Part shown: positions 3,390 to 19,356 of the stretch, piece by piece
How positions within the stretch are numbered: the stretch's first letter is position 1
How the letters are laid out: every line of letters starts with the position of its first letter
Assembly: GCA_016771945.1 (NCBI GenBank)
Contig: QZLF01000001.1
Span: 372,001 to 436,000 of the forward strand
Source of the DNA: Candidatus Leucobacter sulfamidivorax
Lineage (GTDB): Bacteria; Actinomycetota; Actinomycetes; Actinomycetales; Microbacteriaceae
Direction of reading: 5' to 3'
Length of the DNA: 64,000 bases
The notes under the pieces: generated by a model
Told to the model about the DNA's origin: nothing
The model's input: only the letters and a program-made list of their open reading frames with translations
Database searches by the model: none
Made by a program: the position numbers and the translations under genes

Positions 3390-4661
3390 ATGGAGACCAC
3401 GACCCTGACCGCCCCGGCACGGTCCATCGACGAGCGCCGCCCGGAAGACTACCCGGGCGCCGACGAACTGGTGCGGCGCGCCCGCGCGCTGATCCCGCTG
3501 ATCCGCGAGCACTCGCAGGAGTCGGAGGATCTCACGACCTTCCCCGTCGCGCTGCGCGAGAAGTTCATCGAGAACGACCTCTACCGGCTCTACGTGCCCA
3601 CCCGCTACGGCGGCTTCGAGGAGACGCCGCGCAACTTCATGCGCGTGGTCATGGAGATCGCCCGGGGCGACATGAGCACCGGCTGGAGCTTCGCGCTGAC
3701 CGCGAACCACGCGCTGCAGATCGGCTCGTGGTTCCCCGAGGCCGCGCAGGACATGGTCTTCGGAGCGGGCGACTTCCGGGCCGCGGCCAACTACCTGCCC
3801 ACCCTCACCGCGAAGAAGGTCGACGACGGCTGGCGGATCGACGGCACCGTGCAGTACTGCTCGGGCCTGCCCCACTCGACCTACTTCATGGGGCAGACCG
3901 TGCTCGAGGGGGAGAATCCCGACGGCTCGCCGCGATACGGCATCATCATCGCGCCGCGCGACTCCTGGACCATCGACGACGACTGGGGCCGCACCCTCGG
4001 CCTGCGCTCGACGGGTTCGAACACGGTGCGCTTCGACGGCGGCGTGATCCCGCACGAGCTGCTCATCGAGGATGCGAACATGGTCGACTACGTCAACCCC
4101 GACGGCTCGCCGGGCTGGCACCTCACGGGCAACCCGCTCTACGCCGGCCGCCACTTCGTCATCTTCCAGATGTCGATCGCCTCGGCCGCGGTCGGCGGGG
4201 CCTTCAGCGCGCTCGACGAGTTCGCGCGCCAGATGGACGAGAAGCGCGTCTCGCATCCGCCGTTCGACCTGCGCCACGACGACCCCGACTACCAGCGCTA
4301 CTACGGTCTCGCCTACTCGAAGCTGCGCATGGCCCGCGCGGCGATCCTCGCGGTCGCCGACGAGCACCTCGCGCTCTGCAAGCGGGTCGCGGTGGGGGAG
4401 GCCGAGTACCGCGAGGCCGACGACCACCGCATCTCCGCCATCGCGCGCGAGGCGATGATCCTCGCCTGGGAGGTGACCGAGGAGTACCTCTTCCGCAACA
4501 TCGGCGCTTCGAGCATCGAGCGCACGGAGCGCTTCGAGCGCCAGTTCCGCGATCTCGCGCAGGGCACCACCCACCGCTTCGTGATGCTGCGCGACGCCCT
4601 CTCGCGCAATGTCGCGCAGGACCTGCTGGCGAACCCCGCCCTGGCCGGCGAGCTTCCCTGA
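3390..4661 (+). CDS. Group D flavin-dependent monooxygenase (acyl-CoA dehydrogenase fold)
   Basis: The ATG at 3390 is chosen because it follows GAGGAGGAG; an in-frame upstream ATG at 3297 has no ribosome site. The 423-aa protein has the acyl-CoA dehydrogenase fold: N-terminal helical domain (LREKFIENDLYRLYVPTRYG), a beta domain with LRSTGSNTVRFDGGVIP, and a C-terminal helical bundle. This variant, like HsaA, DszC and SadA-type enzymes, uses reduced FMN/FAD and oxygen to hydroxylate aromatic or amine substrates. It needs a partner flavin reductase, and none is adjacent. It lies 67 bp upstream of an amidohydrolase, suggesting oxidation followed by hydrolysis. Substrate unknown; a true acyl-CoA dehydrogenase is less likely. 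Confidence 0.8.
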   Translation: METTTLTAPARSIDERRPEDYPGADELVRRARALIPLIREHSQESEDLTTFPVALREKFIENDLYRLYVPTRYGGFEETPRNFMRVVMEIARGDMSTGWSFALTANHALQIGSWFPEAAQDMVFGAGDFRAAANYLPTLTAKKVDDGWRIDGTVQYCSGLPHSTYFMGQTVLEGENPDGSPRYGIIIAPRDSWTIDDDWGRTLGLRSTGSNTVRFDGGVIPHELLIEDANMVDYVNPDGSPGWHLTGNPLYAGRHFVIFQMSIASAAVGGAFSALDEFARQMDEKRVSHPPFDLRHDDPDYQRYYGLAYSKLRMARAAILAVADEHLALCKRVAVGEAEYREADDHRISAIAREAMILAWEVTEEYLFRNIGASSIERTERFERQFRDLAQGTTHRFVMLRDALSRNVAQDLLANPALAGELP

Positions 4662-4728
4662 CCCCGATCCCCGCGGTCGGCGGCGGCCCCCGTGGTCGCC
4701 GCCGGCCCCGACGCACGAGGAGTGCATC

Positions 4729-6141
4729 ATGACCCAGAACCCCCACCGCGGCAGGACCGTGATCCGCGGCGCGCAGGTGCTGACGCAGGATCCCGCGCTC
4801 GGCGACCTTCCCGAGGCCGACGTGCTCGTCGTCGACGGCGAGATCGCCGAGATCGGACCGGGCCTCTCCGTGGCCGATGCGGAGGAGATCGACGCCGCCG
4901 GCAAGATCCTGATCCCCGGCTTCGTCGACACCCACCGTCACACCTGGCAGTCGCTCGTGCGGCACCTCGCGACCGACTGGACGCTCGGCCAGTACTTCAC
5001 GGGCATCCACTTCGGCCTGAGCAAGCACTACCGCCCAGAGGACACCGAGATCGCGAATCTCCTGGGCGCGCTCGAGGCACTGAACGCGGGCGTGACGACG
5101 CTCGTGGACTGGAGCCACAACCTCGAGACCCCCGCGCACGCCGACGCCGCCATCGCCGGGCTCAGGGAGTCCGGGCTGCGGGCGGTCTTCGCCCACGGCG
5201 GCGGCGCCACGATGTGGGCGGTGCCGAACGACGTGCGCCACACCCGGGACGTGCTGCGCATCCAGCGCGAGCACTTCGGGGGCAGCGACACGAGCGGCCT
5301 GCTCACCCTCGCCTTCGCGGCCCGCGGCCCGCAGTTCGCGCCCGGGCAGGCGACCCTCGACGACTGGGAGCTCGCCCGCGAGCTCGGGGTGCGCATCACC
5401 GTGCACGTCGGCGACGGGGAGTGGGGCAGGAGCGGCCCGGTCCGCTTCATGCGGGAGCACGGCCTGACCGGTCCGAACGTCACCTATGTGCACTGCAACA
5501 CGCTCTCGGACGAGGAGCTGCGGATCATCGCCGACACCGGCGGCACCGCGAGCGTCTCGGCGGACATCGAGTCGCAGATGGGCCACGGCTGGCCGGCGAC
5601 GGGCCGGCTGCTCGAGGCGGGGATCCGCCCGAGCCTGTCGATCGACGTCTGCTCCTCGACCTCGGGAGACATGTTCAACGCGATGAAGACCACCATCTCG
5701 CTGCAGCGGGCGCTCGACAACGCCGCGACCGACAACGCGGACGGCCAGGTCGGCGTGAAGCTGCGTTGCAGCGACGTGCTCGAGTTCGCGACGGTGCGGG
5801 GCGCGATCGCCACCGGGCTGGACGACCGCATCGGCAGCGTGACCGTCGGGAAGCAGGCCGACCTCGTGCTGCTGTCGACCTCGGGTCTCGGCACCACGCC
5901 GCTCAACAACCCCGTGGGCGCGATCGTCTACTCCGGCAACATCGGCATGGTCGACACGGTGCTCGTCGCGGGCAACGTCGTGAAGCGGGACGGCGCGCTG
6001 CTGCGCGACGACCTCGAATCGATCCGCCGGCGTGCGACCGACGCCCGCGACGAGCTCTTCGAGCGCGCTCGCGCCGAGGAGGCGACGGCGGATGCGCGGA
6101 TCGGCGGCGCCTGGCTGCCGGGGGCGCTCTCGGCGAGCTGA
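4729..6141 (+). CDS. Amidohydrolase / deaminase of the TRZ/ATZ (chlorohydrolase) family
   Basis: The start at 4729 follows ACGAGGAG; the frame extends upstream as a shadow of the preceding gene. The 470-aa protein shows the metal-dependent hydrolase pattern: N-terminal beta sandwich, GFVDTHRHTWQSLV with the first metal histidines, ITVHVGDGEWG, VTYVHCN, and SIDVCSSTSGDMF carrying the catalytic aspartate region, then a C-terminal beta strand set with GKQADLVLL. Family members deaminate or dechlorinate N-heterocycles such as guanine, cytosine, adenosine derivatives and s-triazines. Co-transcription with the upstream monooxygenase suggests it acts on the oxidised product. The substrate cannot be assigned. 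Confidence 0.85.
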   Translation: MTQNPHRGRTVIRGAQVLTQDPALGDLPEADVLVVDGEIAEIGPGLSVADAEEIDAAGKILIPGFVDTHRHTWQSLVRHLATDWTLGQYFTGIHFGLSKHYRPEDTEIANLLGALEALNAGVTTLVDWSHNLETPAHADAAIAGLRESGLRAVFAHGGGATMWAVPNDVRHTRDVLRIQREHFGGSDTSGLLTLAFAARGPQFAPGQATLDDWELARELGVRITVHVGDGEWGRSGPVRFMREHGLTGPNVTYVHCNTLSDEELRIIADTGGTASVSADIESQMGHGWPATGRLLEAGIRPSLSIDVCSSTSGDMFNAMKTTISLQRALDNAATDNADGQVGVKLRCSDVLEFATVRGAIATGLDDRIGSVTVGKQADLVLLSTSGLGTTPLNNPVGAIVYSGNIGMVDTVLVAGNVVKRDGALLRDDLESIRRRATDARDELFERARAEEATADARIGGAWLPGALSAS

Positions 6142-6142
6142 A

Positions 6143-6190
6143 GGCCGCGGTGCGGGTCCCGTCGCACAGGGATCCGCACCGCCGCGGCCT
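6143..6190 (+). terminator. Hairpin after amidohydrolase
   Basis: GCCGCGGTGCGGGTCCC and GGGATCCGCACCGCCGCGGC form a long imperfect stem just after the stop codon. No T-tract follows, as is common in high-G+C actinobacteria. The duplicated ctaG segment starts three bases after this hairpin. Confidence 0.65.
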
Positions 6191-6192: not shown

Positions 6193-6395
6193 GAGCGCGG
6201 CCACGCTGGTGCTCACCTACATCGACGTGACCGGCCTCTCCTTCTCGGGCGACGCGGCCTTCGGCGCCGGCCTCGGCCAGTTCGTCACCGAGATCGAGCT
6301 CGGCAGGCTCTGGCTGCTGCAGCTCATGCTCGCGGCTATGACCACCGTGCTGTGCTTCGCGGTGCGCGACCGCCGCTGGGTGCTGCTCGCGCTCG
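6193..6395 (+). pseudogene. Internal fragment of ctaG/copD, direct repeat of 15216-15418
   Basis: These 203 bp match 15216-15418 in the same orientation with a single difference (T at 6337 for C at 15360). They encode about 67 internal residues of the CopD-CtaG membrane protein (TLVLTYIDVTGLSFSGD onward) without the gene's start or remainder. The copy begins right after the amidohydrolase terminator and ends where the IS3-related sequence starts. It is a non-functional remnant that marks a rearrangement junction. Confidence 0.95.
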
Positions 6396-6410
6396 TTGGA
6401 GAGATGCTAC

Positions 6411-7142
6411 TCATCGAGACCGCCAGGGTCGATCGGGTTCGACCTGCTCGACGGTCTTCCAGGGGCCGCGTTGACGGATTAGTTCGGTCTTGTAGAGGTT
6501 GTTGACCGCCTCGGCGAGGGCGTCATACGAGTCCCCGACGGTTCCCGTCGAGGGTGTTGCGCCAAGCTCGACAACCCGGTCGGTGTAGACCATCGACATG
6601 TAGTTCGACCCGTGATCGGCGTGATGGATGAGCCCATCTAGCGGACCGTCCGCACCCCAGGCGGCCATGTCCAGCGCCTGCAACGGCAGCACTTCCGCTT
6701 TCAGCGTTGAGGCGACGTTCCAGCCCACGATCCGCCGTGAATAGACGTCGGTGACGAACGCGACGTATGCGAACCCCGCCCAGGTGGCGACATACGTGAT
6801 GTCTGCGACCCAGAGTCGCCGCGGCGCGTCCGCGCGGAACTGCCGCTGGACGAGGTCCCGCGGAAGGGCCTGCGTCTTGTCCGGCCTCGTCGTGAACACC
6901 TTCTTCGACTTGCGCACCCCGCGCACTCCCGCCAGGCGCATGAGCCTCGCGGTCTGGTCGCGGCCGATCTCCCACCCCTGCCGCTTCAAGAGCGCATGCA
7001 TCTTCCGTCGCCCATAGACGCTGTAGTTCTCCGCATGCAGCCTGGCGACCTCGGGCACCAGCAGCTCGTCACGCAGCTGCCGGGCAGAGGCGACGCGGGT
7101 CTTCGCGGCGCGATACCCGCGGGACGTGAGGAATCCCTGCAC
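6411..7142 (-). pseudogene. IS3-family transposase OrfB, C-terminally damaged
   Basis: This is the rve integrase-type catalytic subunit of an IS3-family element: YSVYGRRKMHALLKRQGW, LWVADITYVATWAGFAYVAF, HHADHGSNY and AEAVNNLYKTELI carry the DDE residues. OrfB has no good start of its own. Its reading frame continues upstream to about 7219 and joins OrfA by a -1 shift (OrfA ends at a TGA, while the -1 frame reads on as LTEIIRFIDEYRERFG), as in programmed IS3 frameshifting. Damage: the protein ends VEQVEPDRPWRSR, lacking the roughly 30-40 C-terminal residues usual for the family. The E motif reads DSYDALAE where the family has DSYDNALAE, so one codon is missing. Probably inactive. Confidence 0.85.
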
Positions 7143-7613
7143 GGCCGGGCGCAGCGTCCGGCAGATGAGCTCGACCCCGAACCGCTCTCGATACTCGTCG
7201 ATGAAGCGGATTATCTCGGTCAGGGCCGGTCGAGCTCCTTCGCGAAAAACACGCTCGCTGCCTTGAGGATCTCATTCGCCTTCCGAAGCTCGGCCACCTC
7301 GCGGCGCAGCCGCTTATTCTCCTCAGCAACATCGCTTGGGACACCGGGCTTCACGCCGGCATCGACCTCACGGCGGCGATGCCACACCCGCAGCGTCTCC
7401 GCACTCATACCGAGGAGGCCGGCGACGTGTCGGACCGCGGACATCAGATTCGGGTGCTCACCGGAGGCCTTGGCCTCGTCGAGCATCCGCAGCGCCCGAT
7501 CACGCATCTCGGGAGAATACTTCTGGTTCATCGTGTTCCATCCTTGCTTCAAGAACGGAACGAAACCCAGGCCGATTCAAGGAGCGGTTGGGAGGATCGC
7601 TCTGGCGACTATC
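6415..7613 (-). mobile_element. IS3-family insertion sequence, internally deleted
   Basis: The element spans OrfA and OrfB. Candidate terminal inverted repeats are CGCCAGGGTCGATC at 6421-6434 and, inverted, CGCCAGAGCGATC at 7595-7607; they differ by one inserted base and one substitution, so the exact ends are uncertain. The short distance from the truncated OrfB to the left repeat indicates an internal deletion. It sits at the left border of the accessory block, directly against the ctaG/copD fragment. Confidence 0.6.
7220..7531 (-). CDS. IS3-family transposase OrfA
   Basis: The ATG at 7531 follows AAGGATGG on the reverse strand. It gives 103 aa with the OrfA helix-turn-helix (AVRHVAGLLGMSAETLRVWHRR) followed by a leucine-zipper helix (VAEENKRLRREVAELRKANEILKAAS, here spread over residues 60-90) and the usual FFAKELDRP end. 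OrfA binds the element ends and is fused to OrfB by -1 frameshifting to make the active transposase. OrfA itself looks intact while OrfB does not. Confidence 0.85.
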   Translation of the reverse strand: MNQKYSPEMRDRALRMLDEAKASGEHPNLMSAVRHVAGLLGMSAETLRVWHRRREVDAGVKPGVPSDVAEENKRLRREVAELRKANEILKAASVFFAKELDRP

Positions 7614-7799
7614 GGATCCACTGTCGCCACTGTCGTACCTGCCGACGGGTCCGCTGCAGGAACGTTCGAGTTCGGTCAGAGGGCAAGCCCTCGTCCTTGG
7701 CCGAAATTAGGATTCCGACCACGCAATCGGTTGTGCTCTTGGCGCAATCCGAGTTGAAGCCTGGGAGACCAGTGAATCGACAATCTACCCAGTTTTGAC
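7614..7799. other. Non-coding stretch between IS element and aldolase gene
   Basis: About 190 bp between the IS end and the stop of the convergent-side aldolase gene. It is visibly poorer in G+C than the flanks and has no convincing gene, terminator or repeat. Confidence 0.4.
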
Positions 7800-8492
7800 T
7801 TAGAGATTCCGGACCAGATAGTTCCATACTGCCTGAACGGCGCGTGGACTATAGATGTGATCGCGCTTAGCGATGGACTCTGCCTCATCCGACCACGCCG
7901 GCCAGCCGCCCATCTGACGGGTCAGCAATTGTTGTCTAGCGGCCTGCTCAAGGACGACGGCTCGGACGACAGCGGTCTGCACGTCGGGGCCGACGGTGAC
8001 GATGCCGTGATTCGCAAGGAGAAGCGCGTGGTTCGCCCCCAGATTCTCGGCCACCTGCGATCCGAGTTCTGGCGTGAGGATCAGGTCGGCTGTTCCGGTG
8101 AACCGTGGCACCTCAGGTGGAACGAAGAAGTTGGCCGCGTGACTGACCGGGCGCAGAGGCTGCCCGGTGGCGCCGAGTGCTACCGCATGTGGCGGATGCG
8201 TGTGCACCACTGCCCCGACGTCGGGGCGCGCCCGCATGATCTCAGTGTGGATCGGGTACTCGCTGTGACGAGTCCCGTCGCCCTCCACGACATCGCCGTC
8301 CGCATCGACGAGATGCACGCGCGCCGGGGTGATCTCGGCGAGACTCCATTCCGCATGCTTGATCCAGACACCTCGACCCTCTGGGTCGCGGATTGAAGTG
8401 TGCCCCCAGATGAAGTCGTCTTGATCATTAGCCGCCAGCACACGGGATGCGGTCGCCACCAACTCCCTGATCGGTTCGGCGTCCACGTTCAA
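7800..8492 (-). CDS. Class II aldolase/adducin family protein
   Basis: The protein is 230 aa, the normal length for this zinc-dependent family (fuculose-phosphate aldolase, ribulose-phosphate epimerase, decarboxylases). It shows SEYPIHTEIMRARPDVGAVVHTHPPHA with the metal-binding HTHPPH, and LLANHGIVTVG with the third histidine. It overlaps the upstream BKACE gene by four bases (ATGA), so the two are cotranscribed and translationally coupled. Members can also act as decarboxylases of hydroxy-aromatic acids. Base composition is lower in G+C than in the core genes around it, consistent with acquisition. Confidence 0.85.
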   Translation of the reverse strand: MNVDAEPIRELVATASRVLAANDQDDFIWGHTSIRDPEGRGVWIKHAEWSLAEITPARVHLVDADGDVVEGDGTRHSEYPIHTEIMRARPDVGAVVHTHPPHAVALGATGQPLRPVSHAANFFVPPEVPRFTGTADLILTPELGSQVAENLGANHALLLANHGIVTVGPDVQTAVVRAVVLEQAARQQLLTRQMGGWPAWSDEAESIAKRDHIYSPRAVQAVWNYLVRNL

Positions 8493-9460
8493 CCCCGGGT
8501 CGGGAGCCCGATTTGGGCCCGGTATTCGTCCGCAGTGGCGGGCGTGCGACCGAGTTGCGCCGCGATGTCTCGAGCGCGCTCGAACAGTTCGATGTTGCTG
8601 GTCAGCATCTCGTCACTGTTCGGGTGACGCCACAGGCTGTCCTCCAGGCCCACGCGGATGTTCAGGCCCATCATGAGAGCGAGCGTCGTGATGTAGAGTC
8701 CAGCCCGCCCGGCGTTGCAGACAGTGATAGAGGCGCTCGGGTCGATCTGACGGATCTGATCGACCATCAGAATCAGATGAGTCGCCATCGATTTGGCATC
8801 GGTGACATACGCGCCCGAGATGAGGGTACGGCCGACGTCAACCGGGAGCGCGTAGAGGATGATCCAGTTGGTCCTGTCGCCGGCCTTGACGATACCGGTG
8901 TCGAAGAGACGCCTCTTCGCGAACTCGATCTCGCCCGAGGAATGCACGACGATCTCCGGACTGACGCCATTGTCCAGGATAGTCCGGACCGCGGGTATCA
9001 CGAATGCTTCAGGGTGGCCGGCTGCGCAAGGAGCTACCTCGGCCAGTTTTGAGGTGACAGGGCTGAGGCACTCATCGAACGATTTCCCGTTGAGCACATT
9101 CAGATTCGGCACGAAGTCGTTGCCGAAACGCTCCCTCAGCGGATCGAGGACGAGACTGTAGGCCTCCGTCGGCGGCAGATCGAGATCGAGTCGGCGGCCC
9201 TGGGAGTCCGTGACCCAGGTGAAGTCGATGTGGACACCGCAGGCGCCTGCCTCGATCACTCGGCTCGCCTCATCGATGTAGTCCTCGATGTCAATCGGCT
9301 TCTCAGCTTCGGTTCCGAAGTTCGATCGGCTGGCCACTGCGACATTGATCGCCACCTTCGAAGGAACGTCCCAGATCGGTTGCAGGGTGGCGTCGGCGGT
9401 GAAGGCATACTCCTCCATCTCGACCCGAGCGGCTTCCCAGAGCGAGGGTGCGGCATTCAT
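8489..9460 (-). CDS. BKACE family beta-keto acid cleavage enzyme (DUF849)
   Basis: The ATG at 9460 follows AAAGGAGA on the reverse strand; it yields 323 aa. The sequence fits the beta-keto acid cleavage enzyme family: a TIM barrel with GVHIDFTWVTD, EIVVHSSGEIEFAKRR, ITVCNAGRAGLYITTLALMM, and the typical late RVGLEDSLW followed by NSDEMLTSN. These enzymes cleave a beta-keto acid with acetyl-CoA to give acetoacetate and a CoA thioester (Kce is the founding member). Coupled to the class II aldolase, it suggests carbon-chain cleavage of a ring-opened product. Substrate specificity cannot be read from the sequence. Confidence 0.85.
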   Translation of the reverse strand: MNAAPSLWEAARVEMEEYAFTADATLQPIWDVPSKVAINVAVASRSNFGTEAEKPIDIEDYIDEASRVIEAGACGVHIDFTWVTDSQGRRLDLDLPPTEAYSLVLDPLRERFGNDFVPNLNVLNGKSFDECLSPVTSKLAEVAPCAAGHPEAFVIPAVRTILDNGVSPEIVVHSSGEIEFAKRRLFDTGIVKAGDRTNWIILYALPVDVGRTLISGAYVTDAKSMATHLILMVDQIRQIDPSASITVCNAGRAGLYITTLALMMGLNIRVGLEDSLWRHPNSDEMLTSNIELFERARDIAAQLGRTPATADEYRAQIGLPTRG

Positions 9461-9697
9461 CTCATTTTCTCCTTTGCCTTTGTGGGACTCGGCAGTCCGA
9501 GCCATTCAGGGTAGGGGAGCCGTTTGTCTTGACTCCAGCACAGCGACTCCATCACTGCCGTGCGGTGAAAGCCAGTAGCAGTCTGCTGTGCGGAACATTC
9601 ATTCGAAACCGTTGCGTTCGCCGCTGCGGCCTCGTTCAGTGATGTGAACCCGACGAGGTGTCGGCGCTTCGATGTAAGGAAGGACTGGTCGGACAAC
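9461..9697. promoter_or_regulatory. Divergent region between BKACE operon and DUF6081-like gene
   Basis: This 237-bp gap is A/T-richer than its surroundings. It holds the ribosome sites of both genes (AAAGGAGA reading left; AAGGAAGGA reading right) and an irregular AACATTCATTCGAAACC patch near 9594-9610 that could be a binding site for the IclR regulator at 10469. The site is only a guess. Confidence 0.35.
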
Positions 9698-10414
9698 ATG
9701 ACAACTCAAGCGGGGCGACTGTACGACCCCTATCTCGGCCCTGCCGTCGACCCGGCGAAGTGGTTCCACCTCGAGTTCCCGCTGCCCGACGGCGGCAGCT
9801 ATGTCGCGGAGGAGCCGACGGCGACCATCGTCGCGCACGACGGGGAGCTTCGGGTGGCTGTGGCCGAGTTCACAAAGAGCCACGCTGTCCAGCCCATGGA
9901 CAACTGCAAGTTCCTGCTCCTGTCCACGGAGGACTTCCAGATCCCAGCCGCGGGGACGGTCGGCTTCTCAGCGACGATCACGGCCGATCCCATCGGTGCC
10001 ACCCCTTACGATGTGCGCGATGGCTTCGCCGCCTTCGTCGTCGGGGACATGGTCTCGGGGGCGATCTTCGATGTCTGTACAACGGGCGATGTGGCGTTCG
10101 CGATCCACGAGCAACTCCCCTATCCGGGGGTGGAGCGCCCGTACACCCGTGTCGTGCAGGATCCGCTCTACGTCCCGAGCGCCGAACGCGGCGCGTCCGT
10201 ACGGTGCTCGGTCGAGTTCGACGCCGATGCGCGTAAGGTGATCTGGTCGGTGAACGGCGCCGTCGTCCACGAGGCCGAAGGAGTGACGATGCCCCCATCG
10301 GTCAAGGTGGGCACGGGGATCTTCACCGTCAGGCCGGTCGAGGACGGCGAGAGTCGATCCTCCCACGGACAGGGCATGTCGGCCTCCTGGCGGGACATCC
10401 GCGTCCCCGAATGA
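9698..10414 (+). CDS. DUF6081-like protein, beta-rich, function unknown
   Basis: The ATG at 9698 is preceded by AAGGAAGGA; the protein is 238 aa. It has no signal peptide or membrane helix and is rich in beta strands (GGSYVAEEPTATIVAHDGEL, GTVGFSATITADPIG, RKVIWSVNGAVVHEAEGV), resembling concanavalin-like or DUF6081-type proteins. The resemblance is from memory of the family and is not certain. It stands alone between the BKACE operon and the IclR gene, whose stop codons face each other, so it is presumably part of the same accessory regulon. Possible roles are substrate binding or a lyase/hydratase-type activity; no catalytic residues are recognised. Confidence 0.65.
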   Translation: MTTQAGRLYDPYLGPAVDPAKWFHLEFPLPDGGSYVAEEPTATIVAHDGELRVAVAEFTKSHAVQPMDNCKFLLLSTEDFQIPAAGTVGFSATITADPIGATPYDVRDGFAAFVVGDMVSGAIFDVCTTGDVAFAIHEQLPYPGVERPYTRVVQDPLYVPSAERGASVRCSVEFDADARKVIWSVNGAVVHEAEGVTMPPSVKVGTGIFTVRPVEDGESRSSHGQGMSASWRDIRVPE

Positions 10415-10468
10415 CCTCGGTGCGCGGGCCCGGACCCCTGTGGACCGGGCCCGCGCATGATCTGCAGA

Positions 10469-11230
10469 TCAGGCGGCGGTCGAGTAGTCGACCTGCTCGG
10501 CGAGCTCCCGTTCCAGTCTGGCCGCGATCTCCTGCACAGCGCTCGCCGCCTCGCGAACCCTGGGGGCGGAGGCGCGGAAGCTCGGCATCGAGACGGTGAT
10601 CGCGGCGGTGGGCCAGGATCCGCCGTCGCGAATCGCGACGCCGACCGCGGCCACCCCGCGCTCGCTCTCTCCCATGTTGGTGCCGTATCCGATAGCTCGG
10701 ACGGCCGCGAGCATCGGCCTGAGCCGGTCAGAGGGCGGCACGGCGGGTTCTCGGCTGAGAACGCTCGCGAGCTCCTCCGGGGCGAGCGCGGCGAGCATTG
10801 CCTTGCCGCCCGAGGTGAGGTGGGCGGGGAGCACCGCACCTGCCCGCGAGCCGATGCGCACCGGGTTCTCACCTTCGACACTGTCCAGGAATCTCACAGT
10901 TCCGCCTTCTCTGACCATCAGGTGGGTCGTCTCGTCGAGCATGCGGCTGAGGGCGTGCAGGTGCCGGTCCGCGGTGATGCGGATGTGCTCCGAGGCCGTC
11001 GCCGCCGATCCGAAGCCGCCGAGGGCCGGCCCGGCCAGGTAGCGGCGCCGCATGTCCTGGATGACGAATCCGCGGCGGAGCAGCGTGCCCAGCAGGCGGT
11101 GAACCGTCGACTTCGCGACGCCGAGCTCGCGAGCCGCGCTCGAGAGCTGCACCGCTCCGTCACGGCGGAGCATGAGCAGCAGCACCATCGCGTTGTCCAC
11201 CGATTCGACGGTGTAGTCCCGATGCGGCAT
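10469..11230 (-). CDS. IclR family transcriptional regulator
   Basis: The protein is 253 aa with the classical layout: N-terminal winged helix (LSSAARELGVAKSTVHRLLGTLLRRGFV, shown here by its SAARELGVAKSTVHRLL core) and a C-terminal effector domain with AHLTSGGKAMLAALAPEEL and ERGVAAVGVAIRD. IclR proteins sense aromatic acids or small carboxylates and control catabolic operons. It lies convergent to the DUF6081-like gene and divergent from the TetR gene at 11442, between the BKACE operon and the cupin operon, either of which could be its target. Confidence 0.9.
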   Translation of the reverse strand: MPHRDYTVESVDNAMVLLLMLRRDGAVQLSSAARELGVAKSTVHRLLGTLLRRGFVIQDMRRRYLAGPALGGFGSAATASEHIRITADRHLHALSRMLDETTHLMVREGGTVRFLDSVEGENPVRIGSRAGAVLPAHLTSGGKAMLAALAPEELASVLSREPAVPPSDRLRPMLAAVRAIGYGTNMGESERGVAAVGVAIRDGGSWPTAAITVSMPSFRASAPRVREAASAVQEIAARLERELAEQVDYSTAA

Positions 11231-11382
11231 GACGAACCTCTTTCCCGATGAGTAGACGGATGCGCGTCGGCTGCGACCGGGGAGGAATCCGGGGAAACCT
11301 CTTCGGCGGGCTGCGCTGCCCGGCGACTCGAGGCTGTGCCCAGGTGCGGGTGGAGCCTCGTTGCTCGCTTCGCTTGTTCTAA

Positions 11383-11402
11383 TTTACAGTGATGAGTGTA
11401 AA
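11383..11402. promoter_or_regulatory. TetR-type operator TTTACA-N8-TGTAAA
   Basis: TTTACA at 11383-11388 and TGTAAA at 11397-11402 form a perfect 6-bp inverted repeat. It lies about 40 bp upstream of the TetR gene start, a typical place for an autoregulatory operator. Confidence 0.6.
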
Positions 11403-11405
11403 TGA

Positions 11406-11434
11406 TTGCACGTAATATTGCGAGACTATACTTG
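11406..11434 (+). promoter_or_regulatory. Promoter of TetR gene, probable leaderless transcript
   Basis: TTGCAC (11406-11411) is followed by TATACT at 11427-11432 (15-bp gap) or TACTTG at 11429-11434 (17-bp gap). The ATG at 11442 lies only 7-9 bases beyond the -10 hexamer and has no ribosome site before it (TTGCCTCACT), so transcription probably begins at or next to the start codon. Confidence 0.5.
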
Positions 11435-11441
11435 CCTCACT

Positions 11442-12104
11442 ATGAAAGCGGTGCAGATTCGAAGGCAGGATGGCGGCTCCGCACTGAAGCGAAGTGCGAT
11501 CGTCTCGGCCGCTCTCGAGGTCTTCGCGAGAGACGGATTCTCCCGGGCCAGGGTCGAGGACATCGCGCAGGCGGCGTCCGTGTCGACGAGGACGGTCTAC
11601 AACCATTTCCAGGACAAGAGCGCGCTGTTCGCGGCCGTCGTAGAGATCAGTGCGACGGCCACATCTCACGCGTACATTGCGACGATCGACGGAATCCTCG
11701 GGGCGGTGGCCGATCCTGACGATCTCGAATCGGCGTTGATCTCGTGCGCGATGGCTCTTCGCGAGTCGGTGCCGCCGGAGCACCCGCACTGGGGGCTCGT
11801 CCGGCACCTCCACGCCGATGCAGCCCACGTCTCGGTCGACGTCGCCGACACCTGGCGCCAGGTGGGCCCGGCGCGTGTGAATCGCCAGATCGCCCTGCAC
11901 TTCTCGTCGCTCACCCTGAAGGGACTCCTCCGGCTCGCGGATCCGGATGCCGCGGCCGAGCACTACATCGCCCTGATCCGCTCGACCTGGGGTTCGGAGT
12001 TCGAGCCCAGAGTGACGGAGGAGCACTCGGCCCGACAGGTGGAGCTGGCCGTCCGCACCTTCCTGTACGGCTACTCGACGGTGCCGCGGGACACCGGCGA
12101 GTAG
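11442..12104 (+). CDS. TetR/AcrR family transcriptional regulator
   Basis: A start at 11442 gives 220 aa; an in-frame ATG 36 bases upstream would lie inside the promoter. The N-terminal helix-turn-helix is canonical (ALEVFARDGFSRARVEDIAQ, then VSTRTVYNHFQDKSALFAAV). The C-terminal ligand domain resembles the TetR_C_7/AefR type. It precedes the cupin/NmrA/SnoaL operon by 207 bp in the same direction and has its own operator just upstream, so autoregulation plus control of that operon is the simplest reading. Confidence 0.9.
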   Translation: MKAVQIRRQDGGSALKRSAIVSAALEVFARDGFSRARVEDIAQAASVSTRTVYNHFQDKSALFAAVVEISATATSHAYIATIDGILGAVADPDDLESALISCAMALRESVPPEHPHWGLVRHLHADAAHVSVDVADTWRQVGPARVNRQIALHFSSLTLKGLLRLADPDAAAEHYIALIRSTWGSEFEPRVTEEHSARQVELAVRTFLYGYSTVPRDTGE

Positions 12105-12311
12105 CGCGGACTCGCCGAGCCCGGTGCCGGCCAGTTCTTCGTAGGCGCGGGTATCTGCAGCCTCGAGGGGTGCCGACCGACATACCCCGATCGTTCTGCC
12201 TGGCAGAAAACGTGTCTCGTTCGCGTCCAGTCGCCGCTTCGGGTTCCTATCGTGGCCGTACCTTCCCCGGCACGACCGTCGACCGGGATCCGTTCCGACG
12301 AAGGAGGACGT
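12105..12311. other. Intergenic region upstream of cupin operon
   Basis: This 207-bp gap should hold the promoter of the cupin operon. The only solid signal is AAGGAGGA just before the ATG at 12312. No copy of the TTTACA-N8-TGTAAA operator was seen here. Confidence 0.4.
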
Positions 12312-13490
12312 ATGACCACCAACATCCGCCGAGGCAAAGTGCCGCACTCCCAGACCGGCATCACGCCCTACCTGGACGAGATCTACACGGTGAAGGGATT
12401 CTTCGGCGACTGGGCCATGCTCTACCGCAGCCACAATGTCGGCCATCCTTCCGAGTGGTCGAGCGACGATCTGATGAATCTCGGCGCGGATACGAACGCG
12501 CTGGTTCCGAGCGACTTGAATGATCCCGCGGGCGCGCCGATGCCGATCCTGGAGGGTGATGGGATCGTCGTCTCGCTCTCGCGCCGCAGCGCGCCCATGC
12601 CCTTCCTCGAGAAGAACGCCGACCACCACCAGATCCGCTTCTACCACCAGGGCGAGATGACACTGGAGACCGAGCTCGGCCCACTGGAGGTGGAGGCCGG
12701 CGACTTCGTCGTCATCCCCGTCGGGATGATGTTCCGCGAGGTCCCCAAGACGGACGACAACGCCGTCATGATCTTCGAGACCAGGGCGCCGGTCCGCCCG
12801 GCCGAGGAGCTGTGGGACAGCGTGGGCTTCAGCGCCTTCGCGATGGACTACACCCTGATGCAGCTGCCCACACCGCAGGAGTGGTCTGCAGAGGAGATCG
12901 AGGTGGAGACAGAGGTCCGTGTCCGTCTGCGTGGCGAGTATGAGAAGCTCGTCTTCCCGTTCAACCCGCTGCGCGATGTCGTCGGCTGGATGGGCGATCC
13001 GGTGATCTACAAGCTCAACATCTGGGATGTGCCCGGTATGGGCACCTCGCAAGGCTTCCTGCCTCCGCCGAGCGGTGCGGTCCTGCTGGGGGAGAACCGC
13101 GAGTTCCTCTTCACGGTCCAGGCTCCGCGACCGTTCCCCAACACGCCGGCTCCGAACGGCAGCTACGGCGCCCCCGCCCACCGCAACGACTACGACGAGG
13201 TGTGGTTCAATCATCGGTCCGACAAGGCCTCCGATACCGAGGGACACCTATGGCGCCTGTCGCCGGCGGTGGTTCACCCGGGGCTCAAGCGGCCACCGGC
13301 CTATCCCGAGAACCCCGTGACCGAGGTGCGCGAGGCCAAGATCAACTTCGACACGGAGCCCCGGCTCTCCTGGACCGCCGAGGCGCGGGCCGCCTTCTTG
13401 CCCGACCCTCATGTCGCGGTCTACACCAGCCTGTACGGCGCTCACATCGGCGTCGTGCCCGAAGAGGCCACCAGGCACGTCAAGAAGTGA
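12312..13490 (+). CDS. Cupin protein resembling homogentisate 1,2-dioxygenase
   Basis: The start follows AAGGAGGACGT; the protein is 392 aa. It has two cupin-like halves: an N-terminal one with MPFLEKNADHHQIRFYHQGE and a C-terminal one with HRNDYDEVWF, which could supply His/Glu iron ligands as in homogentisate dioxygenases. VEAGDFVVIPVGMMFREV is a typical cupin strand pair. A homogentisate-like iron dioxygenase would cleave a dihydroxylated ring with O2. It leads an operon with an NmrA-type reductase and a SnoaL-type protein. Family placement is moderate; the true substrate is probably not homogentisate, since none of the other homogentisate-pathway genes is present. Confidence 0.7.
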   Translation: MTTNIRRGKVPHSQTGITPYLDEIYTVKGFFGDWAMLYRSHNVGHPSEWSSDDLMNLGADTNALVPSDLNDPAGAPMPILEGDGIVVSLSRRSAPMPFLEKNADHHQIRFYHQGEMTLETELGPLEVEAGDFVVIPVGMMFREVPKTDDNAVMIFETRAPVRPAEELWDSVGFSAFAMDYTLMQLPTPQEWSAEEIEVETEVRVRLRGEYEKLVFPFNPLRDVVGWMGDPVIYKLNIWDVPGMGTSQGFLPPPSGAVLLGENREFLFTVQAPRPFPNTPAPNGSYGAPAHRNDYDEVWFNHRSDKASDTEGHLWRLSPAVVHPGLKRPPAYPENPVTEVREAKINFDTEPRLSWTAEARAAFLPDPHVAVYTSLYGAHIGVVPEEATRHVKK

Positions 13491-13504
13491 GAGAGGAAAG
13501 AGCA

Positions 13505-14404
13505 ATGGAGATTCTGACCTACGGGGCCACAGGAGTGCAGGGCGGCGCGATGGCGCGACGGCTCGCGGGAACGGGGCACTCGGTCCACGCACTGCTGCGT
13601 GAGCCCGAGAAGCTCGGGGCGTTGGCCGATCGCGGAATCCACGCGGTCGGGGGCGACATCGGGAACCGCGAGAGCGTCGAGGCCGCAAGCCGAGGTATGG
13701 ACCGGGTGGTGTTCAACCTGCCGCTTGTCTTCGACCGCGAGACGGGGCTGCGCTGGGCGCGCAACGTGCTCGAATCGGCGAAGGCCGCGGACGTGGAGCT
13801 CGTGATATTCAACACCGGGAGCATCGTGCCGCCCTGGCCGACGGAGTACCTGCACCTCGACCTGAAGCGTCAGATCATCGACATCGCGGACGAGATCGGG
13901 CAGCCGATGATCAGCCTGCGGCCCAGGCTCTACTATGAGGTGCTCGGCGAACCCTGGGTCGCGGGCGCGATCCTGGAGCAGTCGACCCTGGCCTATCCGC
14001 TTCCGGCGGACTTCCGCGTGAGCTGGTGCACGGTGGAGGACGTGGGTGCGGTGGCTGCGGCCTGTCTGGATCGCCCCGACCTCGCAGGTACCGGCATCGA
14101 GGTCGGCGGACCCGCAGCGTTGACCGGTCCGGATCTCGCCGATTCGTTCACGCGGGCACTCGGCCGTGAGATCGGCTATTACCCGCTGCAGGTGTCGGAC
14201 TTCGAGAAGGGGCTGCAGCAGAACTTCGGGCCCGAAGTCGGAACGGTCATCGCCGAGTCGTTCTACTACTTCGAGACCCTCGGGCCGGAGGGGATGGTCA
14301 TCCCCGAGGCCGCGGCAACGGCGGATGGACTCGGCGTGACGCTCACCTCTCTCGACGACTGGATCGGCTCGCGTTCCTGGGGCGATGTCGAAGGGAGAGA
14401 GTGA
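13505..14404 (+). CDS. NAD(P)-binding NmrA-like protein
   Basis: The protein is 299 aa, with the atypical short-chain dehydrogenase N-terminus MEILTYGATGVQGGAMARRL (glycine motif GxxGxxG) and an NmrA-type body. It lacks the YxxxK catalytic pair of classical short-chain dehydrogenases, as is usual in NmrA-like reductases or regulators. It starts 14 bp after the cupin gene (ribosome site GAGAGGAAAG), and its stop shares one base with the next start. A role in reducing or isomerising the ring-cleavage product is possible; redox sensing is the alternative. Confidence 0.8.
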   Translation: MEILTYGATGVQGGAMARRLAGTGHSVHALLREPEKLGALADRGIHAVGGDIGNRESVEAASRGMDRVVFNLPLVFDRETGLRWARNVLESAKAADVELVIFNTGSIVPPWPTEYLHLDLKRQIIDIADEIGQPMISLRPRLYYEVLGEPWVAGAILEQSTLAYPLPADFRVSWCTVEDVGAVAAACLDRPDLAGTGIEVGGPAALTGPDLADSFTRALGREIGYYPLQVSDFEKGLQQNFGPEVGTVIAESFYYFETLGPEGMVIPEAAATADGLGVTLTSLDDWIGSRSWGDVEGRE

Positions 14405-14841
14405 TGACGGGAGTGATTCCGCGTGGGAGCGCGTTGGACTCCCTGACCGCAGGACTGCTGTTCTCCGAGTTTGCGAATGCACTCGACACCAAGAACTGGC
14501 AAGCATACGCCGAGCTCTTTGTTCCCGACGGCCTGCTTCATCTCCCCGGAGCAGATCCGGTGCAGAAGAACGAACTCGCGTCGGTCTGTCAGGCCGTGCT
14601 CGGCGGGTTCTCCGATACCCATCACATGATCACGAATGTCATCTCGACCCCAGGCTCGATGGTGAACCACGTCACCGCGAATCTGCGGGCCACCCATTTC
14701 TACCCTGATTCCGATCGTGAGCCGTGGATTGTCATCGGGCGCTACATCGCCAAGACCCTGCCTCAAGGGGATGCCGTGCTCTTTCAGAGTGTCGAGTTGG
14801 TCATGGTTTGGCAGACGGGGGAAGCGCCGACCGGTATGTGA
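14404..14841 (+). CDS. SnoaL-like / NTF2-like protein
   Basis: This 145-aa protein has an NTF2/SnoaL cone fold signature: an N-terminal helix with FANALDTKNWQAYAELFVPDG and strands ending in SVELVMVWQTG. SnoaL-like proteins serve as small cyclases, isomerases, dehydratases or subunits of ring-hydroxylating enzymes. Its ATG overlaps the stop of the NmrA-like gene by one base (a GTG three bases earlier is also possible), so it is translationally coupled. It is the last gene of the cupin operon; a hairpin (GGACGC/GCGTCC, 14879-14900 region) follows without a T-tract. Confidence 0.75.
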   Translation: MTGVIPRGSALDSLTAGLLFSEFANALDTKNWQAYAELFVPDGLLHLPGADPVQKNELASVCQAVLGGFSDTHHMITNVISTPGSMVNHVTANLRATHFYPDSDREPWIVIGRYIAKTLPQGDAVLFQSVELVMVWQTGEAPTGM

Positions 14842-14928
14842 CGGGATCTCGCAGGCGAGGTGTGGCCGGCCCTGAACGCGGACGCTCCGAGAAAGGCGTC
14901 CGACGGGGGGCCGTAGGCTAGAGGCACC

Positions 14929-16929
14929 ATGCCCAGGTCCCTTCGCGTTCTCGCGCCCGCCGTGCTGCTCGCGGTCACCCTCGTGGCGCTCGTGGCGGGG
15001 CTCGCCATCGGCGGCGCGGCCGACGAGCGCGCGCTGCTCGACCCGGGGGCCGTGGTGCGCTACGGTCTGCCGGTGGCCCGCACCCTCGTGAATCTGGGAC
15101 TCGCGGGCCTCATCGGCTCGCTCGTCATGGTGCTCTGGGCGCTCGACACCACCCGCCCCGAGGGGCGCCTCGCGATGGACCTCGCTGCGGCGAGCGCCGC
15201 GATCGTGACCGTGGCGAGCGCGGCCACGCTGGTGCTCACCTACATCGACGTGACCGGCCTCTCCTTCTCGGGCGACGCGGCCTTCGGCGCCGGCCTCGGC
15301 CAGTTCGTCACCGAGATCGAGCTCGGCAGGCTCTGGCTGCTGCAGCTCATGCTCGCGGCCATGACCACCGTGCTGTGCTTCGCGGTGCGCGACCGCCGCT
15401 GGGTGCTGCTCGCGCTCGCCGCCGCGCTCGCCACGGTGCTGCCCCTCGCGCTGCAGGGCCATGCCGCGGGGGCCTCGGGGCACTCCCTCGCGGTGAACTC
15501 GCTGCTCGTGCACCTCGTCGGCGCCGCGGTCTGGCTGGGCGGCCTCGTCACCGTGGTGCTGCTCGCGAAGGCCGTGGACCGGCCCCGGCTGGCGGTCGTC
15601 GTCGGCCGCTACAGCACGCTCGCCCTCCTCGCCTTCATCGGGGTCGCCTCCTCGGGCATCGTGAGCGCAGCGCAGCGCATCGGCGGCCTCGACGCGCTCT
15701 TCGGCACTGGCTACGGGCGCATCGTCGTGCTGAAGGCGGTCGCGATCATCGCACTCGGCGTCTTCGGCGTCGTGTGGCGGCGCTGGGCGATCCCCCGCAT
15801 CGCGGGCGAGCGCGGCGGGCGGGTCTTCGCGTGGCTCGTCGTCGTGGAGCTCGCGGTGATGGGCGTCGCGAGCGGCCTCGCCGGCGCGCTCGGCCGCACG
15901 GCGACCCCGGTGGCGCTCGACTCGGCCCGGGAGACCGGCGACTTCACGGTCTCGCCGGCCGAGTGGCTGACCGGCGATCCGCTGCCGCCCGAGCTCACCT
16001 CGATGAGCTACCTCACGGAGTGGCGGTTCGACCTCGCCTGGGCGCTCGTGTGCGCCTTCGGCATCGCGCTCTACCTGGCGGGCGCGATCCGCCTGCACCG
16101 GCGCGGCGACCGCTGGCCCATCGGCCGCACCATCGCGTGGACCGCCGGGCTCCTCATGCTCTTCTACACGACCAACGGCGCCCTGAACGCCTACGAGCAG
16201 TACCTCTTCAGCCAGCACATGCTCGCGCACATGATGCTCACGATGCTGATCCCGCTCGTGCTCGTCCTCGGCGCCCCGGTCACGCTCGCGCTGCGCGCGG
16301 TCGAGAAGCGCCGGGACGGATCCTGGGGCGGCCGCGAGTGGATCATGTGGGGCGTGCAGACCCCGTTCTCGAAGTTCATCACCCACCCCGCGGTGGCCGC
16401 CGTGATCTTCGCGGGCTCGCTGTGGGTGTTCTACTTCACGCCGATCGCGGGCTGGGCCGCCGAGGAGCACCTCGGCCACCAGTGGATGATCATCCACTTC
16501 CTCATCTCGGGCTACCTGTTCAGCCTCTCGATGATCGGCATCGACCCCGTGCCCTACCGCTTCCCCTACCCGCTGCGCATCGTCACCCTCTTCGCGACCA
16601 TGGCGTCGCACGCCTTCTTCGGGGTGACGCTCATGACCGGCGACGGGCTGATCCTCGCCGACTGGTACGGGGCCATGGGCCGCACCTGGGGCGCGACGCC
16701 GCTCGAGGACCAGAACACGGGCGGCGGCATCGCCTGGGGCATCGGCGAGCTGCCGACCCTCGCGCTCGCGCTCATCGTCGCGATCCAGTGGTCGCGCAGC
16801 GACGAGAAGGAGCAGAAGCGGAAGGATCGCGCCGCCGACCGCTCGGGCGACGCCGAGCTCGCGGCCTACAACGAGATGCTGGCGAGGCAATCCGAGCGGG
16901 ACCGCCGGGCCGCCGAGCGCGGGCGCTGA
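14929..16929 (+). CDS. CopD-CtaG fusion, copper handling / cytochrome c oxidase assembly protein
   Basis: The protein is 666 aa with about 14 membrane helices. The N-terminal half is a CopD-like domain (RIVVLKAVAIIALGVFGVVWRR), and the C-terminal half is a CtaG/caa3-assembly domain with QHMLAHMMLTMLIPLVLVLG and EEHLGHQWMIIHF, whose histidines likely bind copper. It delivers copper to cytochrome oxidase in the membrane and is a core gene in many actinobacteria. Codons 97-163 are the source of the 203-bp copy at 6193-6395. The gene itself is intact, so the accessory block to its left did not disrupt it. Confidence 0.9.
   Translation: MPRSLRVLAPAVLLAVTLVALVAGLAIGGAADERALLDPGAVVRYGLPVARTLVNLGLAGLIGSLVMVLWALDTTRPEGRLAMDLAAASAAIVTVASAATLVLTYIDVTGLSFSGDAAFGAGLGQFVTEIELGRLWLLQLMLAAMTTVLCFAVRDRRWVLLALAAALATVLPLALQGHAAGASGHSLAVNSLLVHLVGAAVWLGGLVTVVLLAKAVDRPRLAVVVGRYSTLALLAFIGVASSGIVSAAQRIGGLDALFGTGYGRIVVLKAVAIIALGVFGVVWRRWAIPRIAGERGGRVFAWLVVVELAVMGVASGLAGALGRTATPVALDSARETGDFTVSPAEWLTGDPLPPELTSMSYLTEWRFDLAWALVCAFGIALYLAGAIRLHRRGDRWPIGRTIAWTAGLLMLFYTTNGALNAYEQYLFSQHMLAHMMLTMLIPLVLVLGAPVTLALRAVEKRRDGSWGGREWIMWGVQTPFSKFITHPAVAAVIFAGSLWVFYFTPIAGWAAEEHLGHQWMIIHFLISGYLFSLSMIGIDPVPYRFPYPLRIVTLFATMASHAFFGVTLMTGDGLILADWYGAMGRTWGATPLEDQNTGGGIAWGIGELPTLALALIVAIQWSRSDEKEQKRKDRAADRSGDAELAAYNEMLARQSERDRRAAERGR
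15216..15418 (+). repeat. Direct repeat, parental copy within ctaG/copD
   Basis: This 203-bp segment is repeated at 6193-6395 with one mismatch, 9023 bp apart in direct orientation. Homologous recombination between the two would delete the accessory block together with the 5' end of the intact gene. Confidence 0.95.
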
Positions 16930-16935: not shown

Positions 16936-17403
16936 TCAGCGGGTCGGCGTCGCCACGCCCCGCAGCACGCCCTGATCCACCCCGTGCGCGAGCATCGCGA
17001 GCAGCGAATGGCGCAGCGCCTCGCTCTCCGGCCCGCGCAGGCCCTCGGTCAGCAGCTCCTCGACGCGGTCCACCCGGGGCCGCAGCTCGGCGACGGTCGA
17101 CCGGCCCCGCTCGGTGAGGGTGAGCACCTTGCGGCGGCGATCCTCGGTGCTCTGCTCCCGGGCCACGAGGCCGTTGCGGGTCATGCGCTCGACGAGGTCG
17201 GCGATGGTCGAGCGGTCGAGGTCGAGCTCGGCCCCCAGATCCACTTGCCCGATGCCCGGCCTGCGCTCGAGCACCGAGAGCGCGGCGAACTGCACGCTGG
17301 AGACCTCGAGGGAGACCTCTCGGTTCCACAGCGCCAGGTGCAGCTGCTGGGCGCGGCGCAGCAGGTGGCCGGTGTGGTAGCGGGTGGAGCTGTCGGTGTT
17401 CAT
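16936..17403 (-). CDS. MarR family transcriptional regulator
   Basis: The protein is 155 aa with a MarR winged helix: QVDLGAELDLDRSTIADLVERM as recognition region and the wing STEDRRRKVLTLTERG. It lies 12 bp downstream of the FAD hydroxylase gene on the same strand, so both probably form one transcript from the promoter near 19400-19427, with the regulator controlling its own operon in response to a phenolic ligand. Its stop is convergent with the ctaG/copD stop only six bases away. Confidence 0.9.
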   Translation of the reverse strand: MNTDSSTRYHTGHLLRRAQQLHLALWNREVSLEVSSVQFAALSVLERRPGIGQVDLGAELDLDRSTIADLVERMTRNGLVAREQSTEDRRRKVLTLTERGRSTVAELRPRVDRVEELLTEGLRGPESEALRHSLLAMLAHGVDQGVLRGVATPTR

Positions 17404-17415
17404 CTCCTCCCGACT

Positions 17416-19356
17416 TTATCCCGCCCGGGTGAAGATGCCGGCGAAGTAGCCCGCGATCTCGTCCGTGGCGTCGAGCGGCAGCACCTGCGCGACGTACATG
17501 TCGGGGCGCACGATCACGACGGCCCCGCGCTCGCGGTCGACGCCGCGGGTGTCGTAGTAGTCGCCGTCGCGGGTGATCGACGAGAACGCCTTCTCGTAGT
17601 CGACGAGGCCGTAGCGGCCGGTGCGCGGGCGGAGCAGGCTCGGGAGCGAGCCGAGATCGACCTCGCGGTGCGGGCGCTGCACGATGCCGCGCACGTCGAT
17701 GACGCTGTCGACGTCGCCGCCCAGCTTCACGATGGGCGAGTCGGGGGAGGTCTCGAGCCACGCGCAGAGGCCCTCGAAGGCGGTCTCGTCGCGCCCGGCG
17801 AAGAGGTAGGCGCGGAAGCGCCCGTCGGCGCGGTGCACGTGGCCGAGCTCGACGCGCTGGGCGTCGGCGATCCGGGTCACCGGGGCGGAGTGGAAGCGCC
17901 TGCCGATCTCGAGGCCCGCCGCGAGCGCCTGGTGCTCCGCGCCGCCGGTCAGGAGCGACGGCGTGTAGCGCACGCCGAAGCCGGCGGTGTAGCGGCCGGC
18001 CTTCACGAAGTAGGCCTGCAGCTCGTCGGGGTCGACGCCGCCGAGTTCGGGATGATCCGGATCCTTCGGCGTCGCGGCCATCATGGCCGACCATTCGCGG
18101 TCGAAGTCGATGAGGTCCTGGGCGACCGGCTGGCGCTCACCCGAGTAGGTCTCGAGCAGCGAGGCGTCGACCTGGCCGCGCAGCACCGCGATCAGCTTCC
18201 AGCCGAGGTTGAAAGTGTCCTGCATCGACACGTTCATGCCCTGGCCGGCCTTGGCGCTGTGCGTGTGGCAGGCGTCGCCCGCGATGAAGACGCGGGGATC
18301 CGCGCCCGCCCCGTTCGCCCCGTCGACCCCGTCGCGCCCCGCCGTGTCGTCGAAGCCGTCGGTGACCCGCTGCGCGACCTCGTAGATCGACCACCACGCC
18401 GTCTCGCGGACCTCGAGGGTGTAGGGGTGCAGCACGCGGCGGGCGGTCTCCGCGATCTGCTCCTGCGTCAGGCCGCGCACCGCCGCGCGGTTGCTCTCGT
18501 CGACGCTGCCGAGGTCGACGTAGAGGCGCACGAGGTTGCCGCCCTCGCGCGGAATCAGCAGGATGCTGCCCTCGTCGGCCGACTGGATGGCGGCCTTGAG
18601 GCGGATGTCGGGGAAGTCGGTGACCGGCAGGATGTCCATGACGCCCCAGGCGTGGCCGGCGGCGTCGCCGTGCAGGCTGCGGCCGATGGCGGCGCGCACG
18701 CGGCTGCGGGCGCCGTCGGTGCCGACGAGGTACTTGGCGCGGATCGTCACGGTCTCGGGCTCGGCGCCGTCCGCCGCGCCCCCCTCGGCCTGGCCGCCGA
18801 CCCGTGCGAAGGTCGCGGCCACCGGGTACTCGGCGTCGCGGTCGACCTCGAGGGAGACGAACTCGAGGCCGTAGTCGGGCTGCAGCCGGGTGGGGCTGTG
18901 CTCGGCGAAGTCGAGCAGATAGTCCTGGATGCGGGCCTGGTTGACGATGACGTGCGGGAACTCGCTGAGCCCGTCCTCCACGTCCTGCACCCGGCCGGTG
19001 CGCACAATGGCGCCGCGGTCGTCCTCGCCCGGCCGCCAGAACGAGACCTCGTTCACCCAGTAGGCCTCGTCGATGAGCTTGCCTGCGAGGCCGAAGGCCT
19101 CGAAGGTCTCGACGGTGCGGCAGGCGATGCCGTCGGCCTGGCCGAGCTGCAGCCGGCCCTCGCGGCGCTCGACGATGCGGGTGGTGATCTCGGGGAACTG
19201 CGAGAGCTGCGCCGCGAGCATGACGCCCGCGGGGCCCGAGCCGACGATGAGCACGTCGACCTCGTCGGGCTGCGGCCGGCCGAGCGCCCTGCCGGGCGCC
19301 GCGGGATGGATCGTCGGATCGCCGGGGCGGAAGCCGTCGCGGTAGTACTGCTGCAC
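17416..19356 (-). CDS. FAD-dependent aromatic hydroxylase (phenol 2-monooxygenase / 3-hydroxybenzoate 4-monooxygenase type)
   Basis: A GTG start at 19356 (preceded by AAGGAGTT) gives 646 aa, the length typical of this group. Group A flavoprotein motifs are present: VLIVGSGPAGVMLAAQL (FAD ADP-binding), VGTDGARSRVRAAIG (DG motif) and VFIAGDACHTHSAKAGQGMN (GD motif). A C-terminal thioredoxin-like Phe_hydrox_dim domain (residues ~470-640) matches phenol hydroxylases rather than simple PHBH. It uses NAD(P)H and O2 to hydroxylate a phenolic ring. The adjacent MarR regulator fits an aromatic inducer. The exact phenol cannot be told. Confidence 0.88.
   Translation of the reverse strand: MQQYYRDGFRPGDPTIHPAAPGRALGRPQPDEVDVLIVGSGPAGVMLAAQLSQFPEITTRIVERREGRLQLGQADGIACRTVETFEAFGLAGKLIDEAYWVNEVSFWRPGEDDRGAIVRTGRVQDVEDGLSEFPHVIVNQARIQDYLLDFAEHSPTRLQPDYGLEFVSLEVDRDAEYPVAATFARVGGQAEGGAADGAEPETVTIRAKYLVGTDGARSRVRAAIGRSLHGDAAGHAWGVMDILPVTDFPDIRLKAAIQSADEGSILLIPREGGNLVRLYVDLGSVDESNRAAVRGLTQEQIAETARRVLHPYTLEVRETAWWSIYEVAQRVTDGFDDTAGRDGVDGANGAGADPRVFIAGDACHTHSAKAGQGMNVSMQDTFNLGWKLIAVLRGQVDASLLETYSGERQPVAQDLIDFDREWSAMMAATPKDPDHPELGGVDPDELQAYFVKAGRYTAGFGVRYTPSLLTGGAEHQALAAGLEIGRRFHSAPVTRIADAQRVELGHVHRADGRFRAYLFAGRDETAFEGLCAWLETSPDSPIVKLGGDVDSVIDVRGIVQRPHREVDLGSLPSLLRPRTGRYGLVDYEKAFSSITRDGDYYDTRGVDRERGAVVIVRPDMYVAQVLPLDATDEIAGYFAGIFTRAG

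Follow-up and report, generated by a model that had tools for sequence, protein, structure and literature searches.

A 203-bp ctaG copy beside a truncated IS3 element: a probable internal seam in the enlarged HU-ctaG region of Candidatus Leucobacter sulfamidivorax

Site-specific islands are typically flanked by direct repeats, with an intact gene at one end. For Escherichia coli, the consulted part of one study (PMC3161906) describes nearby sequence inserted at novel junctions together with repeated template switching. One-sided homologous capture (HFIR) is described as a mechanism in the excerpted text of two further reports (PMC3240628; PMC5361080). End joining of the Ku type is rare in prokaryotes according to the portion consulted of a fourth source (PMC2884548).

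The window analyzed here is a 64,000-nucleotide stretch of contig C1 in the draft genome of Candidatus Leucobacter sulfamidivorax, and positions are those of the window unless a contig or locus is named. The original prediction, made from the sequence alone, was of a 203-bp direct repeat with one mismatch, and sequence comparison confirmed it: positions 6193-6395 and 15216-15418 are identical at 202 of 203 bases (the sole difference is 6337 T / 15360 C), are offset by 9023 bp start to start, and are flanked by bases that do not match at either end. No further copy was found in the assembly (3,837,865 bases, 11 contigs). Self-comparison of 464 kb of contiguous own sequence, roughly 12% of the genome, was carried out using megablast (24-base word, cut-offs of at least 60 bp and at least 90% identity). 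The resulting 12 pairs fell into four families, namely the ctaG pair, two tandem arrays of short range, and a pair of 64 bp with a spacing of 2.3 kb; the ctaG pair was the only dispersed pair of at least 100 bp at 90% identity or more found in these 464 kb. A tandem array with a short period, its copies 90-96% alike, lies at C1:253416-253643. The features of the locus are as follows.

4609-6141, plus strand: amidohydrolase (PRK08204 subfamily), last gene left of the seam; Pfam Amidohydro_1, E 3.5e-31; NCBIfam NF006056, 534.9 bits against a cut-off of 391
6142-6190, no strand: strong hairpin by fold energy, ending 2 bp before the ctaG fragment
6193-6395, plus strand: derived ctaG copy (bases 288-490 only), 202/203 identical to 15216-15418
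6396-6433, no strand: filler of 38 bp, outside the IS; no match found elsewhere
6434-7579, minus strand: IS3-family element, upstream end intact at 7579, transposase-3' end short by 165 bp when compared with the copy on contig C4; Pfam rve, HTH_21, HTH_Tnp_1
7800-8492, minus strand: class II aldolase; Pfam Aldolase_II, E 1.1e-44
8489-9505, minus strand: BKACE gene; Pfam BKACE, E 6.3e-26
9644-10414, plus strand: DUF6081 gene; Pfam, E 1.5e-32
10469-11230, minus strand: IclR-type regulator; Pfam IclR_C, E 1.3e-28
11406-12104, plus strand: TetR-type regulator, start tentative; Pfam TetR_N, E 1e-14
12313-14841, plus strand: cupin-NmrA-SnoaL operon, some starts tentative; Pfam HgmA_N, SnoaL_4, NmrA; order recurs in Pseudonocardia ammonioxydans
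14929-16929, plus strand: ctaG/copD, intact, parent of the fragment; Pfam Caa3_CtaG, E 9.6e-83, and CopD, E 5.3e-16; same-genus copies
15216-15418, plus strand: parent repeat copy within ctaG, corresponding to ctaG bases 288-490

The right copy had been placed inside an intact core gene, and this was borne out: ctaG/copD, a conserved gene for copper/cytochrome-oxidase assembly, is full length by Pfam and was detected in all 36 same-genus genomes among 60 relatives (best segment 71-84% DNA identity). A TAGGCT motif stands just 5' of the ctaG start in this genome, and the upstream DNA examined in 18 relatives carries it without exception. On these sequence grounds, with ctaG intact and the conserved motif upstream of it, the right copy is the parent, and the left copy is most likely a non-functional duplicate of an internal ctaG piece. 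The base at which the copies differ is G in 13 of those relatives, C in four, and T in one, so that this base alone cannot tell which copy changed. The amidohydrolase was also considered as an ancestral neighbor of ctaG. Across 60 relatives, a DNA search turned up no more than weak matches to conserved motifs (at best 69% over some 0.4 kb), and a protein in genome G004 that is 42% identical to the amidohydrolase sits in the region but downstream of ctaG; the candidate was rejected on this basis.

The genes between the copies had been described as accessory in type and partly lower in G+C, and both descriptions held. Using five scored candidates per genome, the block DNA beyond the IS gave only aldolase-type and short partial matches in 53 other genus genomes, and G+C at about 7500-9500 is 0.61-0.63, against about 0.70. 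The cupin had matches in 41 of 396 genomes sampled from the order, the present one included, with no close relative among the 396 (best other match 60.6 bits, 27% identity). Cupin relatives occurred in three named genomes: Pseudonocardia ammonioxydans (L074) carries cupin, NmrA, and SnoaL_4 in that order and has BKACE at a distance of about 3 kb, the L076 MAG has the cupin directly beside BKACE, and L075 matches the cupin alone. Given the lack of close genus matches and the gene order shared with P. ammonioxydans, the rightward portion of the block resembles a catabolic module acquired from elsewhere. A plasmid search matched 313 records, and among the 20 listed most were IS3-family copies, one was a BKACE gene, and three had no annotated feature. 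Another class II aldolase gene (C1:364130-364578; L071:131-579) is located upstream of the HU gene, where it precedes a GAF-domain frame and an aldehyde dehydrogenase; it shares 67% DNA identity with the block aldolase (window 7972-8420).

In order to locate the borders of the inserted DNA, 18 of the 36 same-genus ctaG loci were compared. An HU gene lies upstream of ctaG and in the same direction in 16 of these relatives, and was not found in the retrieved DNA of the other two (L047, L057). The HU-ctaG gap is 75-314 bp in 15 of the 18 and 1,298 bp in one (L046). Downstream of ctaG, dcd was placed in 17 of the 18 by a match in its overlapping reading frame (not found in L059), and it was also matched directly in at least L043, L048, L049, and L052. 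In the present genome HU occupies C1:368698-368973 and ctaG starts at C1:386929, a distance of 17.96 kb, and ctaG is 3.8 kb from dcd, as named by NCBIfam. Since HU and ctaG are so close in 15 of 18 relatives, a much larger region than the block was inserted here, and the left copy marks an internal seam. Judged from these spacings, the insertion spans HU to the ctaG promoter, plus another 3.8 kb between ctaG and dcd. The repeat had been thought to bound the accessory block; relatives instead place the borders at HU and the ctaG promoter. The left copy sits about half-way along the inserted HU-ctaG region, and the part to its left holds a Cu-oxidase-type gene, a DUF2249 frame, an AraC regulator, a flavin-monooxygenase-like gene, and the amidohydrolase.

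Further observations were made on the same locus. A membrane and multicopper-oxidase protein is encoded in two overlapping frames at L071:5146-7889 on the minus strand (C1:369145-371888), and the break near L071:7125 in the multicopper-oxidase protein is likely a frameshift or a sequence error. Between ctaG and dcd (window 16936-20680) lie genes for a MarR regulator, a phenol-hydroxylase-like FAD monooxygenase, and a luciferase-like monooxygenase, all three missing from the tight ctaG-dcd spacing of several relatives. Wider HU-ctaG or ctaG-dcd spacing was also seen in L046 (G004), L047 (G022), L057 (G006), L058, and L060, and the HU-ctaG-dcd locus therefore seems insertion-prone in the genus.

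Read from left to right, the seam consists of the hairpin after the amidohydrolase, 2 bp, the 203-bp ctaG copy, the 38-bp filler, and the IS3 element without its outer 165 bp, with several discontinuities packed within about 245 bp. The left copy had been described as lying between an amidohydrolase terminator and a damaged IS3 element. It is indeed an isolated fragment and an IS3 end is missing, but 38 bp precede the IS and the hairpin was not scored as a terminator: a pattern scan for intrinsic terminators gave no call at 6142-6190 and a T run is absent. The hairpin folds at -23.3 kcal/mol as DNA (z -5.28), and none of 200 shuffles was as stable. A 30-mer of the filler had no second site in the own genome, and a 26-mer had none in any of the 53 other genus genomes with up to 3 mismatches allowed. 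The filler was also tried as a variant IS end and rejected, as related IS3 copies carry ordinary transposase sequence at that point. Nine bases around 6430-6437 recur in the IS end, which may be chance.

The IS was measured against a full-length sister at C4:152855-155519 (L070), complete with 23-bp inverted repeats at both ends and flanked by a 4-bp duplication, GAGG; this C4 copy is interrupted by a 1,352-bp insert carrying a 356-aa frame. Given that the element at the seam is short by 165 bp and that 38 bp intervene, the junction is not at the IS tip. The lost 165-bp end has no other near-identical copy (the next best, at 79%, belongs to a related IS), so it was probably deleted and not moved. 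For the same reason a reciprocal inversion or translocation was rejected.

The best explanation, to which we give about an even chance, is that the seam is a deletion junction patched with nearby template sequence after accessory genes had been inserted. Accessory, largely catabolic genes would first have been inserted between HU and ctaG. A deletion would then have taken the DNA from the amidohydrolase hairpin into the IS3 interior, the IS end included. During repair of the break or of a stalled fork, the growing end would have taken up two copied stretches, about 203 bp of ctaG (9 kb off and likewise oriented) and some 38 bp from other sequence, and would then have rejoined within the IS. 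We infer that a single event produced both patch and deletion, by way of template switching or end capture. Patching is favored because several discontinuities fall within 245 bp, with the hairpin adjacent, a copy from 9 kb away, and the IS end missing; because the filler was not found elsewhere and ctaG is intact with its conserved upstream motif; and because no comparable dispersed pair was found in the 464 kb. The insert is a copy of sequence kept at its source (ctaG 288-490, source intact), and flanking DNA has been lost at the novel junction, the missing IS end not being found elsewhere. Counted against patching are that the hairpin may lie beside the seam by chance, that two-event paths yield an identical product, and that a 203-bp patch from 9 kb away is long for template-switch-type events. 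No microhomology was visible between the last bases before 6193 and the ctaG bases before 288, this being the only comparable side, as the other pre-event flanks are gone. The fragment is most probably a common product of DNA breakage where foreign genes have accumulated, and not a mobile element or a working device.

A possible but rather unlikely route runs through tandem duplication of a 9.0-kb unit (6396 to ctaG base 490), giving ctaG(1-490)-filler-IS-block-ctaG, from which a second, illegitimate deletion of the first unit up to ctaG base 287 would have left the 203 bp. The fragment-filler seam would then be a plain duplication joint and each step a common kind of event, but two independent events are required, with a further, earlier one to account for the IS truncation and the filler, and a 9-kb tandem repeat usually collapses cleanly by homologous recombination. 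Tandem duplication followed by IS-adjacent deletion had been proposed originally. The IS end is lost at the scar and the duplication is kept here as a rival, but the IS-adjacent part fits only by half, the junction lying 165 bp inside the IS with 38 bp between. The accompanying point that a simple single crossover is inadequate is supported by the absence of ctaG bases 1-287 on the left. That same absence weighs on one-sided homologous capture, in which an incoming block with ctaG would have recombined in ctaG on the right and joined illegitimately in the resident ctaG on the left: the resident gene is not kept up to the illegitimate join, so that a later deletion of bases 1-287 is needed. Although the block looks imported and has ctaG as a possible homologous anchor at its right end, accessory DNA reaches 9 kb further left, to HU, and neither a donor with the block beside ctaG nor a recipient state was found in the 53 other genus genomes; we consider this route doubtful.

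A site-specific integrative element targeting ctaG would leave an att-type duplication, and the island-like look of the repeat was counted for it. Pfam scans of the block's main frames found the IS3 transposase only and no site-specific recombinase, the left side is without the ctaG 5' part, and the repeats do not stand at both ends of the insert, as accessory DNA runs past the left copy to HU. With no recombinase in the scanned frames and the wrong borders, the att reading was rejected and is given next to no credence. An assembly error at a short repeat might be suspected in a draft of 11 contigs, but there is a one-base difference between the copies, a unique 38-bp filler would not arise from a false join, and the assembly keeps apart three stretches, each 2.39 kb or longer, with 99.4-99.8% identity. 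Since such long near-identical stretches were resolved, error at a 203-bp repeat is highly improbable and was rejected. The three lie on C4 near 165.7 kb and 184.5 kb and on C1 near 1468.4 kb (L066-L068), with an IS3-like transposase match. IS3 tip-mediated adjacent deletion was rejected because 165 bp of the IS end is lost and filler is present. Ku (PF02735) was not found in the own draft genome, which is 94% complete (0/1); the control search was positive in one of 14 genomes, Bacillus subtilis. Classical Ku-type end joining is therefore disfavored in this draft genome and, with Ku not found, was rejected.

As a direct repeat of 203 bp, the pair may recombine. Deletion between the copies would eliminate the block and leave ctaG without its 5' portion, and unequal exchange would amplify the block. 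It is very unlikely that the repeat serves as a recombination handle, with crossover between the copies reversibly amplifying the catabolic block and the ctaG 5' part as a switch of pathway dosage, the opposite deletion being selected against because ctaG would be truncated. The scar is an event of an ordinary, already-known kind in an insertion-prone locus. Its lesson is that a repeat taken for an island border can mislead when relatives set the true limits elsewhere, here HU and the ctaG promoter. Should the templated reading hold, the seam would offer a clear case from nature of patch copying in a bacterium without detected Ku, and the HU-ctaG-dcd region may help to trace catabolic gene gain in the genus.

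Set beside known systems, the locus resembles IS-mediated adjacent deletion in having an IS3 element at the scar, but here the deletion runs 165 bp into the IS and not to its tip, and 38 bp separates the IS from the fragment. With HFIR, as presented in the excerpted text of its two descriptions (PMC3240628; PMC5361080), it shares the presence of imported DNA next to a conserved gene, a potential anchor, but on the illegitimate side that gene has no resident 5' part here. From template-switch or MMBIR-type junctions it differs in that the end product alone is seen, in a natural setting with no selected amplification and no microhomology on the comparable side; the likeness to those junctions, as far as the consulted part of the E. 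coli study describes them (PMC3161906), lies in a short direct-orientation copy from 9 kb off, placed where a junction also shows a deletion and additional bases.
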